Shown in pieces: positions 4,638-28,123 of a stretch of DNA of 64,000 nucleotides. This DNA is from Aquimonas voraii (GTDB lineage: Bacteria; Pseudomonadota; Gammaproteobacteria; Xanthomonadales; Xanthomonadaceae): the NCBI RefSeq assembly GCF_900101825.1, contig NZ_FNAG01000002.1:1-64000 (forward strand), written 5' to 3'. Under the pieces are notes generated by a model. It did no database searches, had not been told where the DNA came from, and saw only the letters and a program-made list of their open reading frames with translations. Made by a program: the position numbers and the translations under genes. The first letter of the stretch is position 1. Every line of letters starts with the position of its first letter.

Positions 4638-5816
4638 TCAGCGCGCGCGAAGGGAGTCGAGGTAGTCCGCCCATGCCTGCATCATTCGGCGGCGTTCCGA
4701 TAGGTGCGTGGTCCGGTTGTAGCTGCGGCCCATCGCGTCGCGCACTTCGTGCGCCAATTGGTGCTCGATCAGGTGCGCCGGAAAGTGCAGTGCCTCATCC
4801 AACAGCGTGCGCGCGGTGGCCCGGAAGCCGTGCGCGCTCTGCCGGTCTCGATAGCCCAGCGTGGCGAGCGCCGCGGCCAATGTGTTCTCGCTCATCGGCC
4901 GATCCTTGCCCCGGTTCGCGGGGAAGGCGAGGGCGCCGCCTCCGGTCACCGCGTGCAGCTCGCGCAGGATCTCCACGGCCTGCCGCGACAGGGGCACCAG
5001 ATGGTCGTGGCGGGTTTTCATGCGCTCGGCGGGGATAGTCCACAGTGCGCCCTCAAGGTCGAACTCAGACCAGGGCGCTTGTCGAAGCTCACCAGGGCGG
5101 ACGAATACCAGCGGCTGCAGCCGAAGCGCGCAGGCGACCACGGCGCTACCCGGATACGCCCAGAGCGCCCGCAGCAGAGTGCCCAGCTGCGCCGGGTCGG
5201 TGATGGCGGGGAAGCTCTGCGGCTTGGGCGGGGTCAGGGCGCCCGCCAGATCGCGCGAGGGGTCGCGCTCGGCGAGGCCGCAGGCGATGGCGTAGCGGAA
5301 GACGCGGCCGGCCACGCTGCGGGCGCGCTTCGCCGTCTCCAGGGTGCCGGCCGCTTCGCTCTTGCGCAGGGCGGCCAGCAGTTCGGGCGGCTCGATCGCG
5401 CCCACGGGTCGGGCGCCGATGTGCGGGAACAGCTTGCGCTCAAGAACCCAGGTCACGGCCACGCGGGTGGACTCGGCCAGGCGCTGCCGCTGCAGCCAGT
5501 CGCGGCCGACGATCTCGAACGTTTGGCTGCCGGCGAACTCTGCGGCGTGGCGGGCGGCCTTGCGGACTTCGCCGGGGTCTTGCCCTTGCGCCAGTTGCGC
5601 GCGGGCTTCGTCGCGGCGCTCTCGGGCTTGCGCCAGTGAGACAGCGGGATATGCCCCCAGCGCAAGCCGCTTTTCCTTGCCCCCGAATCGGTACTTCAGC
5701 CGCCACAGCTTGCTGCCGGCCGGGGATAGCTCCAGGTAGAGCCCGCCGCCGTCGAACAGGCGTTGCGGCTTGTCTGCGGGCTTGGCCTTGCGGATCGCAG
5801 CATCGCTCAGGGGCAT
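4638..5816 (-). CDS. int: Tyrosine integrase of the P4/CP4 type
   Basis: A 392-residue site-specific recombinase. The N-terminal arm-binding domain (MPLSDAAIRKAKPADKPQRL, then DGGGLYLELSPAGSKLWRL) is the DUF4102 type found in tRNA-inserting islands. The C-terminal catalytic domain shows R240 (RPGELR), H329 and R332 (SAHGFRATART), H356 (QLAHEV) and the nucleophile Y366 (GRSYNR). The ATG at 5816 fits the family's usual start; the frame is open further upstream but runs through the tRNA. It lies 173 bases from the 3' end of tRNA-Phe and reads away from it, which marks that tRNA as the attachment site. Confidence 0.95.
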   Translation of the reverse strand: MPLSDAAIRKAKPADKPQRLFDGGGLYLELSPAGSKLWRLKYRFGGKEKRLALGAYPAVSLAQARERRDEARAQLAQGQDPGEVRKAARHAAEFAGSQTFEIVGRDWLQRQRLAESTRVAVTWVLERKLFPHIGARPVGAIEPPELLAALRKSEAAGTLETAKRARSVAGRVFRYAIACGLAERDPSRDLAGALTPPKPQSFPAITDPAQLGTLLRALWAYPGSAVVACALRLQPLVFVRPGELRQAPWSEFDLEGALWTIPAERMKTRHDHLVPLSRQAVEILRELHAVTGGGALAFPANRGKDRPMSENTLAAALATLGYRDRQSAHGFRATARTLLDEALHFPAHLIEHQLAHEVRDAMGRSYNRTTHLSERRRMMQAWADYLDSLRAR

Positions 5817-5950
5817 GGGGGCATCCTCGCGGCGGGTCGGGGGCACTGCCCCCAATGATGCCCCCTCATGCCCCAAGATTGGGTGCGACTCGATGCGACC
5901 GCCTTGGACGGTTGAACAGCCCGAAAGCGTTGGAAATGCTAGCTTTGGGC

Positions 5951-7035: not shown

Positions 7036-7944
7036 ATGTCGATCCTGGTACTGGGCGCGAACGGACAGGTGGGTTTCGAGCTGCTGCGGGCTCTGTCGCC
7101 GTTCGGGCCCATCGACTGCACCTCGCGTTCCGGCAGGTTGCCCGGCCTGGCCCGTTGCCATGCGCTGGATATCGCTGACCCCGAGGCCGCAGCGACTTTG
7201 ATCGAGCGCTTGCGCCCGCGGGTGGTGGTGAATTCGGCGGCCTATACCGCCGTCGATCGCGCCGAGGACGAGCCCGAGCTCGCGTTCAGGGTCAATGCCG
7301 AGGCCGTCGGTGCCGTGGCGGTCGCCTGTGCCCGCCAGCAGGCTTGGCTGCTGCACTATTCAACCGACTATGTGTTTCCCGGTGACTCGACCCGCCCCTG
7401 GCGGGAAGAGGACGCCACCGCGCCGCTCGGCGTCTATGGCGCCAGCAAGCGCGCCGGTGAACTGGCGGTGCAGAGCAGCGGCTGCGCGCACTTCATCCTG
7501 CGCACTGCCTGGGTGTATGCGGCGCGTGGGCAGAATTTCCTGCGCACCATGCTGCGGCTGGCCGGCGAACGCCCGCAGCTGTCGGTGGTGGCGGACCAGC
7601 GCGGCGCGCCGACGCCCGCGCGCTGGATTGCCGCCGCGACCGCGGCCCTGCTGGCGCGCACCGACCTCGATTCGCATCAGGGCGAGCTGCTGCATCTGAC
7701 TGCAGCCGGCGAGTGCAGCTGGCACGACTTCGCCTGTGCCATCTTCGAGGAGGCCGTGGCCGCGGGTCTGATCGCGGCAGCGCCCGAGGTCCGTGCGATC
7801 GGCACCGCCAACTATCCGACCAAGGCCAAGCGGCCGGCCTATTCGCGTCTCGACAATGCCCGGCTTCAGCAGCGTCACGGGCTGGCCTTGCCGGACTGGC
7901 GCATCGGCCTGCAGCAGGTGATCGCCGAGCTTGCCGGCGGCTGA
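7036..7944 (+). CDS. rmlD: dTDP-4-dehydrorhamnose reductase
   Basis: A 302-residue extended short-chain dehydrogenase of the RmlD type, which reduces dTDP-4-keto-L-rhamnose to dTDP-L-rhamnose with NAD(P)H. Seen are the nucleotide-binding motif ILVLGANGQVGFELL at the N-terminus, the STDYVFPGD segment and the catalytic Y-x3-K in GVYGASKRAGE. The start at 7036 follows GGGGTGAG and places the Rossmann strand at residue 2. rmlA, rmlB and rmlC are not adjacent, so this gene is detached from the usual rmlBACD cluster. It presumably supplies rhamnose for O-antigen or other glycans. Confidence 0.9.
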   Translation: MSILVLGANGQVGFELLRALSPFGPIDCTSRSGRLPGLARCHALDIADPEAAATLIERLRPRVVVNSAAYTAVDRAEDEPELAFRVNAEAVGAVAVACARQQAWLLHYSTDYVFPGDSTRPWREEDATAPLGVYGASKRAGELAVQSSGCAHFILRTAWVYAARGQNFLRTMLRLAGERPQLSVVADQRGAPTPARWIAAATAALLARTDLDSHQGELLHLTAAGECSWHDFACAIFEEAVAAGLIAAAPEVRAIGTANYPTKAKRPAYSRLDNARLQQRHGLALPDWRIGLQQVIAELAGG

Positions 7945-8067
7945 GTCGGGGGCGCGCCAATCGGCCGTGCCGAGCTTCGGCGGAAGGCTGTCGCGCCAGC
8001 TCTCGGGCCGCGGCGCTCGCGTGCCGTCTGGCTTCCCTGTGCCTTGAAGGTCTTCATCCGGCCTGCA

Positions 8068-8096
8068 TTGAGCCCGCCGCCCCTAATGCGTACAAT
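8068..8096 (+). promoter_or_regulatory. Promoter of the suf operon
   Basis: TTGAGC (8068-8073) and TACAAT (8091-8096) are separated by 17 bases and lie 34 bases before the start of the Rrf2 regulator gene. The regulator it drives may bind here for autoregulation, but no clear palindromic IscR-type box could be assigned. Confidence 0.65.
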
Positions 8097-8129
8097 TTCG
8101 GTCCTGTTTGACGGAATCGGCTGCCGCGC

Positions 8130-8588
8130 ATGCTCCGCGTCACCAAGCTCACCGACTACGCCACCCTCGTATTGACCGTGATGGCGGCCGACGGCGAGGC
8201 CGTGCACAGTGCGGCCGGGCTGGCCGAGAAGGCCGGGCTGGAGCTGCCGACGGTGTCCAAGCTGCTGAAGCTGCTGGCCCAGGCACAGCTCGTGCAGAGC
8301 TTCCGCGGCGCCGCTGGCGGCTACAGGCTTGCGCGGCCGGCCGAAGAGATCCGGCTGATCCACGTGCTGGAGGCCATCGAAGGCCCGCTGGCGGTGACCG
8401 AATGCGTGGGCCAGGAAGGCCAGTGCGGCATCGAGCACCGCTGCGGCGTGCGCGCCAACTGGCGGCGCATCAACGACGTCATCGCCGAGGCCCTGCACGG
8501 CGTCAGCCTGGTCGATCTGCTGAAACCGCCGCCGCGCGGCCCCGTCCGCAAGACCCAATCCATCCCGCTGGTCATGGCCAGCGATTGA
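8130..8588 (+). CDS. Rrf2-family regulator of the SUF system
   Basis: A 152-residue IscR-like protein. The winged helix-turn-helix occupies residues 1-70 ([44 protein letters not shown]). Three cysteines, C92, C99 and C105 in [15 protein letters not shown], match the Fe-S cluster ligands of Rrf2 sensors. It fits the gammaproteobacterial SUF regulator subgroup that heads suf operons in Xanthomonads, and here it lies 40 bases before sufB. The likely role is to repress or adjust suf expression according to cluster supply. Confidence 0.9.
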
Positions 8589-8628
8589 ACGCCTCCCCGG
8601 CATCACGTTTCACCGCATAGGCAGCCCC

Positions 8629-10068
<1,440 letters not shown>

Positions 10069-10260
10069 AGCCGGGATTCGGGATTGGGGATTCGGGATTC
10101 AATGCCCGAGCCTTTGATACTCCGAAGTAACCCCGGCTGCCGCTCTGTATCGCCCACCCCCCCCACCTGCCTCGCTCCGCAGGGAGAGGGGCTGAAACTT
10201 GAGGCTGCGGCACGTCTTGCCGCGCCCCCCACGAATCCCCAATCCCGAATCCCCAATCCC
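10069..10260. repeat. Repeat-derived insertion between sufB and sufC, bounded by inverted GGGATTC arrays
   Basis: The sufB-sufC spacer is 192 bases, while the other suf genes overlap or nearly touch. Its left end (about 10073-10100) is an array of GGGATTC/GGGATTG units and its right end (about 10232-10260) is the same array inverted (gaatccccaatcccgaatcc...). Between them lies half of a gggagaggggc hairpin sequence. The terminal inverted repeats enclosing about 130 bases look like a REPIN-type, non-autonomous element. The right array ends exactly at the sufC ATG, so that start has no visible Shine-Dalgarno. Confidence 0.7.
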
Positions 10261-11021
<761 letters not shown>

Positions 11022-11022
<1 letters not shown>

Positions 11023-12314
11023 TGTCCGCCCTGCTTGAGAGCTTCGCCCAGCGCTGGGCCGAGCTGCCGGCGCCGCTGCGCGCGGCCGCGGACCTGGGCG
11101 AAGCGCGCAAGGCCGCACTTGAGGCGATGCTCGCCGATGGCCTACCGGCTCAGCGCGCCGAGCGCTGGCGCTACACCAACCTGCGCGCGCTCGGCCAGCG
11201 CAGCTATCGCGCCTCTGCCGGCGCCAGCGTCGACGCTGCGCTGATTGCGCACATCCCGCGGCCGCGCCTGGTCTTCGTCAACGGCTGGCTGGACACTGCG
11301 CTGAGCGACCTTTCCGACTTGCCGGTGGGTTTGTCCGTGCGCGCCCTGGGCCGCGTTCTGCCAGAGGCGCATGCGCGCGATGTGGCGCATCTGGGGCGTC
11401 GCTACATGTCGGCGGATGAGGTCTTCGCGCGCGCCAATGCCGCCTTGGCGGTCGAGGGCGCGGTGATCGAAGTCGAGGCCGATGCCCGCATCGAGGCACA
11501 CCTGCACCTGGTGGCGATCGGTGCCCCGGAGTCGGCCGAGGCCGCCTGGCATCTGCGGCATTTGATCGACCTGGGCGCGAATGCGCGCCTCATCCTCGTT
11601 GAGCACGTGCTGGGCTTCGAGGCGCATGGGCATCTCGACAATACGATTGCCCAGGTGCATCTGAAGCCGGGCGCCGAGCTCACCCATGCGCGCCTGCAGT
11701 CGGCGGCCGAGGGCGCGCAGCTGTTCGCCCGCGTGGACGCCGCGCTGGCCGCGGGTGCGCTGTACCGCCGCGTCGATCTGGAGCTGGGCGCGGCGCTGTC
11801 GCGCTTGGAACTTAATGCCGAGCTTCAGGGCGAGGCCGCGGCCTTTGTCTCTGGCGGCGCGCAGCTGGTCGATGCGAAGCGCGCGGTCGACGTGCGCCTC
11901 GCCGTCGACCACGTAGCCCGCGACACGCGCTGCGACCTGCGCTGGCGTGGTCTGGCCGCGGGCCGCGGCAAGCTCAGCTTCTATGGCGGCATCCGCATCC
12001 GCGAAGGCGCGGACGGCACCGATGCCGAGCTCTCGGATCGCAACCTGCTGCTGTCGGACACCGCCGAGGTCAACACCCAGCCGGTGCTGGTGATCGATGC
12101 CGACGAGGTCAAGGCCGCGCACGGTGCGACGGTCGGCCAGCTCGACGCCGCCGCGCTGTTCTACCTGCGCTCGCGCGGGATTCCGCGCGACGAAGCCCGC
12201 GCGCTGCTGACCCGCGCCTTCCTCGTCGAGGCCATCGAGGTCGGCGAGCAGTCGGCGCTGATCGAAACCCTGACCGATGCGCTGATCGCGCGCATCGAAG
12301 GAGCCGCCCTGTGA
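11022..12314 (+). CDS. sufD: Fe-S cluster assembly protein SufD
   Basis: A 430-residue SufB paralogue that pairs with SufB to form the scaffold and is needed for iron entry. The N-terminus has ERWRYTNLRALGQRSY, and the conserved C-terminal segment includes AAHGATVGQLDAAALFYLRS, containing the histidine at the SufB-SufD interface. It is coupled to sufC by TGATG and to sufS by a GTGA overlap. Confidence 0.95.
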
Positions 12315-13552
12315 ACGCCCAGCGCCAGCCCCACGCGTCCATCGACTGGCTCGCCCTGCGCGCCGAGTTCCCGGTGCTGGCGCGCGAAGTCCACGGCAAG
12401 CCCCTGGTCTATCTCGACAACGCCAACACCGGTCAGAAGCCGCGAACGGTGATCGAGGCCATGGACGCCTACTACAGGCGCTACACGGCCAATGTGGCGC
12501 GCGCGGTGCACAGCCTGGGCGAAGAGGCGACCGCTGCCTACGAAGGCGCACGCGCCAAACTCGCGAAGTTCCTGAACGTCCGGTCCGATGAGCTGGTGTT
12601 CACCTCGGGCACCACCCAGGCCATCAACCTCGTCGCCTACAGCTACCTGCTGCCCAAACTGCAGGCCGGCGACGTGATCCTCGCCAGCCGCATGGAGCAT
12701 CACGCCAACCTTGTGCCCTGGCAGCTGATCGCCGAGCGCACCGGCGCCACGGTGCTGCCGGTCGAGATCCTGCAGAACGGCGAGCTTGATCTCGTCGACC
12801 TCGAGAAGAAGCTCGACGGTCGCGTCAGGCTGCTGGCTGTCACCCACGTCAGCAATGTGCTGGGCACGGTGACGCCGATCCGCGAGATCTGCGCCATGGC
12901 GCGCCGCCATGGCGTGCCGGTGCTGGTTGACGGTTCGCAGGCGGTGCCGCACATGCCGGTCGACATCGCCGCGATCGGCTGCGATTTTTATGCGTTCACC
13001 GGCCACAAGATGGCTGGCCCCACCGGCACCGGCGCACTGTGGGCGAAGCGCGAGCATCTCCAGGCGATGCCGCCCTTCTTCGGCGGCGGCGAGATGATTC
13101 GCTCGGTCAGCTTCGAGCGCACCACCTTCAACGAGCCGCCGCACAAGTTCGAGGCCGGTACGCCCAATATCTCCGGCTTCATCGGTCTGGGCGCCGCGGC
13201 GGATTTCCTGTCCGGCATCGGCATGCCGGCGATTGCCGAGCGCGAGCAGTACCTGCTGGGTGTCGCCACCGAAGCGCTGCGCGCCGTGCCCGGCCTGCGT
13301 ATCTTCGGCGAAGCGCGCGAGAAGGCGGCGGTGATCTCCTTCCTTGTCGAAGGTGCGCACGCGCATGACCTCGCGACCTTGCTGGATCTCGAAGGCATCG
13401 CGGTGCGCTCGGGTCACCACTGTGCGCATCCGCTGATGAGCTTCTTTGGCGTGCCGGCGACCCTGCGAGCCAGCCTCGCGTTCTTCAATACCGAAGCCGA
13501 GATCGAGGCGCTGGTGCGCGGGATCGACAAGGCGCGGCGCTTGTTGGGCTGA
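12311..13552 (+). CDS. sufS: Cysteine desulfurase SufS
   Basis: A 413-residue PLP enzyme that removes sulfur from cysteine for cluster assembly. The PLP lysine is K233 in AFTGHKMAGPTG and the persulfide-carrying cysteine is C371 in RSGHHCAHP, the short-loop context of group II desulfurases that need a sulfur acceptor. The GTG at 12311 overlaps the sufD stop by four bases. The acceptor is probably the SufU-like protein encoded next, since no sufE is present. Confidence 0.95.
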   Translation: MNAQRQPHASIDWLALRAEFPVLAREVHGKPLVYLDNANTGQKPRTVIEAMDAYYRRYTANVARAVHSLGEEATAAYEGARAKLAKFLNVRSDELVFTSGTTQAINLVAYSYLLPKLQAGDVILASRMEHHANLVPWQLIAERTGATVLPVEILQNGELDLVDLEKKLDGRVRLLAVTHVSNVLGTVTPIREICAMARRHGVPVLVDGSQAVPHMPVDIAAIGCDFYAFTGHKMAGPTGTGALWAKREHLQAMPPFFGGGEMIRSVSFERTTFNEPPHKFEAGTPNISGFIGLGAAADFLSGIGMPAIAEREQYLLGVATEALRAVPGLRIFGEAREKAAVISFLVEGAHAHDLATLLDLEGIAVRSGHHCAHPLMSFFGVPATLRASLAFFNTEAEIEALVRGIDKARRLLG

Positions 13553-13618
13553 GAGCCGGGCAGTGGGGCTGCAGTGGGCGGCAGGCATCGAATCCCGATT
13601 CTCCATTGGCTCTCGCGC

Positions 13619-14068
13619 ATGTCGAACCCCTACCGGTCTGCCATTCTCGATCACAGTCGGGCGCCGCACCGGCGCGGCGTGTTGCTGCAGCCAACGCACT
13701 GCGGCTGCGGCGAAAACGCGCTCTGCGGCGACAGCCTGAGTGTGCAGCTGCGGGTGGCAGAGGGGCGCATTCTCGATTACGCCTTCGAAGCCGAGGCCTG
13801 CGCGATCGTGGTCGCTACGGCCTCGATGCTCGGGGAGGCGCTGGTCGGACATGCGCCGACCCGGCTGGAAGCGATCGAAGCGGATCTGCGGCGCCTCTTG
13901 GGCCAGACCCAGCCAGAACCTGACGGCGCTCTGGCTGTTCGCCTCGGCGCGCTCGCCGATCTTGCGGAGATGCGCGCGCTGCCGCGCCGCCATCGCTGCG
14001 TCATGCTGGCGCTCGAAGCCGTGCGCGCGGCGCTGATGGCGCCGAGTGCGGCGAACAACGCGGAGTGA
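13619..14068 (+). CDS. sufU: SufU-like sulfur acceptor / scaffold protein
   Basis: A 149-residue NifU_N/IscU-fold protein. The ligand set is retained: C36 and D38 in NALCGDSL, C61 in EACAIVVATASML, and C127 in RHRCVMLALE; two further cysteines lie at 28 and 30. In Firmicutes SufU uses these to bind zinc and accept sulfur from SufS. The ATG at 13619 matches the family start MSNPYRSAILDHSRAP. A partial GGGATTC-type repeat lies just upstream (about 13589-13606). It ends the suf operon. Confidence 0.9.
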   Translation: MSNPYRSAILDHSRAPHRRGVLLQPTHCGCGENALCGDSLSVQLRVAEGRILDYAFEAEACAIVVATASMLGEALVGHAPTRLEAIEADLRRLLGQTQPEPDGALAVRLGALADLAEMRALPRRHRCVMLALEAVRAALMAPSAANNAE

Positions 14069-14341
14069 TGCGGAGCGCGGAAGACGCCGAGAGGCCATCG
14101 CGATCACGCGCTTCGCGCGCATAGGGTGTGCCAGTGGCGCACCGCGTCTGGTCGAGTCGCGTGATTGAGCGCCTACTTGAACTCGGGCCCATGCGCTTTC
14201 GGTTTCGTTCCCTGCGAGCCGTCACTCGCAGGCGTGGGTGCGCGACACGCGCACCCTACAGCTTCCAGCGACGCCTTCGCTCCCGCGAAGGACGCGGTCA
14301 GCGTTCGCATGAGGTGTGCCTGCGGCGCACCATGTCCATGC
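14069..14341. repeat. Intergenic hairpin repeats after the suf operon
   Basis: A 273-base convergent gap without a supported gene. It holds a perfect 9-bp hairpin gggtgcgcg-aca-cgcgcaccc at 14236-14256 and two looser GGTG(T/C)GCC...GGCGCACC stems near 14125 and 14315. These look like REP-type elements and may also end transcription from both sides. Confidence 0.5.
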
Positions 14342-18456: not shown

Positions 18457-18488
18457 CGATTCCCGATTCCCCATTCCCGATTCCCGAG
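18457..18488. repeat. GGGATTC-type repeat array
   Basis: The sequence cgattcccgattccccattcccgattcccga lies between the EIIA gene and the rapZ stop, seven bases downstream of that stop. It belongs to the same dispersed family as the copies in the suf operon and near 28102. Confidence 0.75.
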
Positions 18489-28084: not shown

Positions 28085-28123
28085 GGCCGCTGCGCGGCCT
28101 TGGGATTCGGGATTCGGGATTCG
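28085..28123 (+). repeat. Hairpin and GGGATTC array after murA
   Basis: A ggccgc-tgc-gcggcc hairpin (28085-28099) is followed by gggattcgggattcgggattcg (28102-28123), another copy of the dispersed array. The hairpin could serve as a weak murA terminator. Confidence 0.55.

Follow-up and report, generated by a model that had tools for sequence, protein, structure and literature searches.

Arrays of G-rich, G-quadruplex-forming heptamers have been described in Xanthomonas by Rehm et al. 2015 (PMC4692102) as mainly intergenic (GGGANTN)n tandem repeats of two or more units, with GGGAATC. In the cited passages of that paper at least one GGGAATC unit was the search criterion, and 70 convergent inverted pairs were counted in Xcc and 75 in Xac. 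The heptamer GGGATTC itself is known from Xanthomonas vasicola as a variable-number tandem repeat that serves as a typing locus; the passage concerned deals with typing only and gives no element ends, pairing or gene context (PMC6459536). A different class of dispersed repeats, the REP units, consists of a GTAG or GTGG head with an imperfect palindrome and belongs to RAYT; the RAYT-linked REPs of Xanthomonas in the corresponding part of Nunvar 2010 are of the type GTAGGAGCGC..., a sequence different from the heptamers considered here (PMC2817692).

The element described here lies in the suf operon of Aquimonas voraii, within a window of 64,000 nucleotides (contig NZ_FNAG01000002.1 of assembly GCF_900101825.1, positions 1 to 64,000). 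It has in common with the repeats of Rehm et al., as the cited passages present them, the seven-base period, the preference for four units, the dispersed intergenic copies, the convergent inverted pairs, the tendency to lie on the coding strand immediately 3' of a stop codon and on the non-coding strand immediately 5' of an ORF, and a position that is often conserved between two species (PMC4692102). In contrast to those repeats, the heptamer here is GGGATTS. No counterpart was found in the same passages for the conserved outer and inner ends of the element, for its gapless contact with one start codon in seven genera, or for the change of heptamer type at an orthologous site.

A convergent heptamer pair between sufB and sufC

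Pfam assigned the genes of the locus, in order, as an Rrf2 regulator, SufB, SufC (ABC_tran), SufD, SufS and a NifU_N protein. Since sufC overlaps sufD and sufD overlaps sufS, the sufB-sufC gap is the sole open gap among sufBCDS. A search of the genome for IscU gave no match above the cut-off, so that SUF is probably the only iron-sulfur scaffold pathway of this bacterium and SufC must be made. An Rfam search of 7900-14200 with E up to 1 returned no known RNA family, and a literature search, whose coverage left out most subscription journals, found no paper on this junction. By eye, the ORF at 4638-5846 on the reverse strand resembles a phage-type tyrosine integrase.

The sequence-only reading had described inverted GGGATTC-type arrays that bound the sufB-sufC spacer and end at the sufC ATG. 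This arrangement was confirmed (Table 1) and the interpretation put on it held in part, with the spacer counted as 192 bases from the sufB stop to the sufC ATG instead of the 190 given before. The 3' arm is the reverse complement of GGGATTG GGGATTC GGGATTG GGGATTC, and the apparent palindromic repeat of the spacer centre is more intact in G002, another genome of the genus, than in A. voraii.

Table 1. Features of the sufB-sufC junction and the adjacent genes (positions in the window)
Feature	Position	Strand	Basis
sufB; stop TAG 10066-10068	8629..10068	+	Pfam SUFBD_core 2.8e-79
Element outer end AGCC, directly 3' of sufB stop	10069..10072	+	family consensus ~(T)GAGCC; own-genome array flank alignment
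5' arm, GGGATTC GGGATTG GGGATTC GGGATTC	10073..10100	+	sequence; family size
Element centre, ~17% different from G002; seemingly worn copy of palindromic repeat of CTCTCCC...GGGAGAGGGG type	10101..10232		sequence comparison
3' arm, four inverted heptamers GAATCCC CAATCCC GAATCCC CAATCCC; last base adjoins sufC ATG	10233..10260	-	
Predicted RNA stem, 22 bp, 10073-10094 with 10232-10253	10073..10253	+	folding; z vs dinucleotide shuffles
In-frame upstream extension (TTG 10084, ATG 10102), judged non-coding	10084..10260	+	codon score, G002 comparison, no Pfam match
sufC, ATG 10261 kept in relatives, without Shine-Dalgarno	10261..11022	+	alignment, codon score, Pfam ABC_tran
sufD, overlapping sufC stop	11022..12314	+	ORF list, Pfam
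sufS, overlapping sufD	12311..13552	+	ORF list, Pfam

The three-heptamer pattern GGGATTNGGGATTNGGGATT gave 448 matches genome-wide (229 + 219) compared with 0 for the reversed pattern, indicating that the heptamer arrays occur beyond chance and bearing out the earlier view that a dispersed repeat element occupies the gap. GGGAATS arrays account for 46 matches elsewhere in the genome. We tabulated 91 arrays of at least three units from the window and 40 further stretches of the same genome, dropping two more at stretch ends; the first 21 sources (the window and 20 stretches) came from places found by the pattern search and in a few cases by similarity, and the other 20 stretches by BLAST similarity to the element. 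Exactly four units were present in 60 of the 91 arrays. By gene calls from a simple in-house codon score, which sets both the start positions and the status inside a gene and some of which may be wrong, 11 arrays were inside genes and 80 outside. Array neighbours within 400 bases of each other were convergent in 26 cases, tandem in 5 and divergent in none.

The arrays follow an orientation rule with respect to genes. Of the 80 arrays outside called genes, 76 turn their G-rich 5' end towards the nearest gene and 4 turn it away; 36 overlap a stop codon or come within 20 bases of one, and 16 are placed likewise at a start codon. A gene edge is within 60 nt for 63 arrays; 62 of them are on the coding strand near a stop or on the non-coding strand near a start, and one breaks this rule. 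The array ends 0 bases from the start in 3 of 16 start-adjacent arrays of the genome, sufC included. Alignment of the array flanks revealed a conserved outer end, ~(T)GAGCC, and a conserved inner tail, ~GNNAGAGC; the unit reads ~(T)GAGCC-(GGGATTS)4-GNNAGAGC and usually occurs in convergent pairs whose outer ends adjoin genes. No target-site duplication was recognised in these flank alignments, and no clean empty site was found in two stretches compared with G002, G003 and G001.

The sufB-sufC spacer is a resident convergent pair of G-rich heptamer elements of the class of Rehm et al. 2015, and a variant of it because its arms consist only of GGGATTC and GGGATTG and lack the required GGGAATC unit. 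The 5' arm has four GGG tracts; ViennaRNA with the G4 option keeps a hairpin over a G-quadruplex for the 5' arm as well as for the whole spacer.

The spacer had been proposed to be REPIN-like, which would make it an element moved by a RAYT transposase. The heptamer family does resemble the REPINs, as described in the cited part of Nunvar 2010, in being multi-copy, intergenic and arranged in inverted pairs (PMC2817692), and the genome contains two Y1_Tnp (Y1-transposase) genes. However, no GTAG occurs in 10069-10260, and the arms are heptamer arrays with neither a GTAG or GTGG head nor a palindrome within the unit. No heptamer array was found in the 3.3 kb and 1.8 kb around the two Y1_Tnp loci (for L067 only 1.8 kb). 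Within this range no transposase is linked to the repeat, and the Xanthomonas REPs listed in Nunvar 2010 have another sequence. We rejected REPIN identity on these grounds and regard it as highly improbable.

Distribution and turnover of the element among relatives

SufC was found in 143 of 149 searched genomes of the family, and the junction was read in 110 of these 143, picked by similarity first, then as one per remaining genus, and then as more members of genera. Array-bearing junctions were compiled by eye, leaving out L211 as a possibly worn variant, and at the 7 junctions without a usable sufB end only the bases before sufC were judged. Heptamer arrays were present at sufB-sufC in 23 of the 110 genomes, A. 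voraii included, and in 11 genera (g1, g7, g11, g17, g18, g19, g28, g30, g43, g45 and g54), with mixed presence within g1, g7, g11, g17, g28 and g45. In 16 of the 23 junctions, from seven genera, no base separates the sufC-side array from the ATG; 6 of the 23 lack the 5' arm (L054, L099, L223 and L233-L235). Within the genus, the spacer recurs in G002 with 86% identity. The spacer of G001 is unrelated and 333 bases long, and none of three heptamer array types occurs anywhere in the G001 assembly, which is 76% complete. Outside the 110 genomes, Luteimonas salinisoli (L132) carries a GTGATTS pair at the junction and is the one with arrays among 11 named Lysobacteraceae-like or near loci. Spacers exceed 260 bases in 32 of the 110 genomes and are shorter than 30 in 4. 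In seven genomes (L039, L043, L048, L061, L089, L210 and L245) the same gap holds an inverted REP pair of the GTAGGAGC.. type, in most of them with an SD-like GGAA before sufC.

These data do not support the recent local insertion that the sequence-only reading had assumed, and we rejected a private event since G002 and other genera have the same arrangement. That reading had granted that conservation of the spacer in distant relatives would argue for native regulatory sequence, and this is largely what the comparison of junctions revealed. The exact fit at the ATG characterises 16 of 23 sufB-sufC junctions, whereas of the 16 A. voraii arrays next to a start codon only 3 show it. Shared descent, accompanied by many losses or replacements, therefore accounts for the fit at sufC better than repeated independent insertion would; selection for the exact fit is an alternative. 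The element would then have entered the gap in a common ancestor, before several genera of the family diverged. The mixed presence within six genera means that a single descent needs many losses, which counts against this explanation. A tail shared by L075, L092 and L132, CGCAAGAGC, was considered as proof of ancestry and dropped, since the same tail ends arrays across the A. voraii genome.

Between A. voraii and G002, the GGGATT cores at sufB-sufC are changed at 0 of 48 positions, compared with 5 of 6 for the seventh base and 23 of 136 for the centre. At the orthologous array 18459-18485 (L299, L301), the type is GGGAATS in A. voraii, GGGATTC in G002 and GGAATTS-like in G003, three sister species, in register and with shared flanks. 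Among 34 genomes, GGGATTS was present in 24, GTGATTS in 7 and GGGAATS in 18. Since three types occupy one orthologous site and the mixes differ between genomes, whole arrays appear to change type; either slippage that starts from a single unit or sequence exchange among copies could bring this about. A bolder reading would treat the heptamer arrays as an actively copy-edited system, in which the types GGGATTS, GGGAATS, GGAATTS and GTGATTS switch at fixed sites, the sufB-sufC arms change in step and still pair, and in genus after genus the array remains joined to the sufC ATG, forming an SD-free translation start at the foot of a hairpin; we consider this unlikely.

Several other places differ between A. 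voraii and G002. At the sufS / NifU_N junction (13553-13618, L300) A. voraii has a worn heptamer pair; in G002 a C-rich arm like that of sufC is intact and lies close to the ATG on its 5' side. At 28102-28121 (L299) a three-unit array is followed by a CTCTCCC/GGGAGAGGGG palindrome, and G002 has two array copies ~165 bases apart. A unit bearing an array is amplified in tandem (L267:2439-2501 vs L298:3141-3671), with copies at a 156-base period in G002 and fewer in A. voraii. Six GGGATTC units of A. voraii (L267:17423-17463 vs L298) have GTGAGAA-type heptamers at the orthologous place of G002.

The start codon of sufC

The sequence before the sufC start is CCCAATCCC-ATG. We measured SD strength as pairing to CCUCCUUA in the region -22 to -4 of the start, with a cut-off of -3 kcal/mol. 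The pairing energy at sufC was 0, in agreement with the absence of an SD noted before. An SD of -3 kcal/mol or better was found in 0 of the 23 array junctions and in 57 of 86 others, L086 being dropped from the count for its misaligned start; an earlier cut gave 0 of 12 and 40 of 56 (Fisher p 4e-6). The array thus goes with a missing SD and, judging from this comparison, may have replaced a former SD in this lineage. Of the claim that the insertion removes the SD of sufC, the absence at array junctions stands; removal is approached only indirectly, since array-less G001 has an SD of only -1.0 at sufC and the cut-off of -3 is attained by 45% of shuffled upstream sequences, compared with 71% of the observed ones. 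Since six array junctions have no 5' arm, sufC is SD-less even without a stem.

The frame of sufC is open from TTG 10084 through the element (ORF 10084-11022), as had been stated, and it had been suggested that SufC is made with an extra N-terminus; this would be a 59-residue extension from TTG 10084 or ATG 10102. Heptamer arrays are free of stop codons in all frames, and among relatives with spacers of 90-210 bases the sufC frame is open throughout in 13 of 19 array-bearing and also in 10 of 29 array-free ones, so the open frame in A. voraii says little in favour of an extension. In G002 the frame is closed by a stop 168 bases before sufC, and neither the start at 10084 nor that at 10102 is kept; in 8 of the 12 array loci examined this region contains neither ATG nor GTG nor TTG. 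A Pfam search of 10084-10260 gave no match, the same in-house codon score places the sufC start at 10261, and the ATG is at the aligned position in 109 of 110 genomes. The extension was rejected on this evidence, and we find it scarcely credible. Most likely, SufC starts at 10261 without an SD, which points to SD-independent initiation.

The predicted stem and rival explanations

The spacer folds with a minimum free energy of -92.1 kcal/mol (z -7.2 vs dinucleotide shuffles). Forcing the sufC start open costs 21 kcal/mol in A. voraii, compared with medians of 9.7 kcal/mol in 17 two-armed and 4.6 kcal/mol in 76 array-free junctions; the cost in A. voraii fits badly with efficient initiation unless kinetics keep the start open. 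For arm pairing, 18 loci with both arms were compared, 17 from the 110 genomes plus L132. Combining an arm with its native partner gives stronger pairing than combining arms from different genera (mean -43.5 vs -33.7; 0 of 20000 permutations, 10 loci); in 3 of the 18, however, the native 3' arm is equalled or surpassed by over half of the foreign ones. A hairpin with z <= -3 was predicted in 33 of 67 sufB-sufC spacers of 30-260 bases, compared with 12 of 68 control gaps, taken from 20 stretches of relatives and delimited with the same in-house gene calls (Fisher p 1e-4), and in 21 of the 44 array-free spacers of this length. The difference from the controls suggests that the sufB-sufC gap attracts or tolerates hairpins. 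Since 32 of the 110 spacers are longer and 4 very short, a hairpin in the gap is not required, and the six array junctions without a partner arm indicate that the stem is not essential. The predicted stem may modulate sufC expression.

We consider it probable that an old, resident heptamer pair lies in the gap and that SufC is made from the SD-less ATG 10261, the stem possibly tuning its level. In this scenario, the outer ends of the convergent pair sit against both coding regions, which puts CCCAATCCC-ATG without an SD at the sufC start; SufC would be made from this ATG by SD-independent initiation, and the 22-bp intercistronic stem may tune the amount. It is also possible, though doubtful, that the pair is a neutral passenger, a selfish or drifting repeat that is tolerated in the one non-overlapping gap of sufBCDS and whose effect is only the loss of a dispensable SD. 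The patchy presence of the array is consistent with this, as is the settlement of other repeat families in the gap, seen in the hairpin frequency of array-free spacers (21 of 44, against 12 of 68 controls). Long retention at the same base across genera argues against a passenger, and so does the invariance of the GGGATT cores (48 of 48 unchanged, while 17% of the centre differs); homogenisation among copies, however, might produce this in the absence of selection.

Intercistronic mRNA stabilisers or attenuators are exemplified by the REP sequences of malE-malF, and by analogy the stem might raise sufB relative to sufCDS. The strong stem directly after the sufB stop, the recurrence of unrelated hairpin repeats in this gap and its position as the only possible site among the overlapping sufBCDS genes are in keeping with such a role. 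On the other hand, the long and very short spacers show that a hairpin is dispensable there, and the SufBC2D complex, which contains two SufC, would call for more SufC and not less; we judge this role to be rather unlikely. Still less likely, in our view, is a coupling bridged by the hairpin, in which the stem brings the sufB stop near the sufC ATG and the terminating ribosome restarts across it, replacing the SD. In the predicted register the sufB stop is 4 bases from one foot and the sufC ATG 7 bases from the other, both feet adjoin coding sequence in many genera, and the better pairing of own arms and the absent SD would fit such bridging. In the cited part of a review (PMC12548453), the coupling of phage f1 genes VII-IX likewise involves a long hairpin a short distance 5' of the second start. 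The f1 genes, however, share a 4-base overlap, and their hairpin is opened by the ribosome on the first gene, whereas here the sufB stop lies outside the stem; when the f1 stop was moved upstream of the hairpin, coupling was lost. Moreover, A. voraii arrays abut gene edges closely throughout the genome, after stop codons too, and the foreign arms that pair as well as the own ones weaken the pairing argument. Since 6 of the 23 array junctions have the sufC-side arm only and are still SD-less, bridging is kept as a rival to the resident pair with an SD-independent start.

As an insertion event, the resident pair is ordinary, being one of several hundred copies of an already described repeat class. 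The junction holds a hitherto undescribed variant of the known heptamer class at an old, common position, and the likeliest picture is one of normal SufC made from an SD-less AUG, with a stem of putative effect; the element does not appear to change the SufC protein. Since SUF is probably the sole scaffold pathway, sufC must be translated despite its array-fused, SD-less start. The gene is thus a natural test of SD-independent initiation, with parallel species that have and lack the array and that have and lack the partner arm. If confirmed, the replacement of one heptamer type by another at fixed sites would point to a process, so far unknown, that homogenises short repeats across a bacterial genome.
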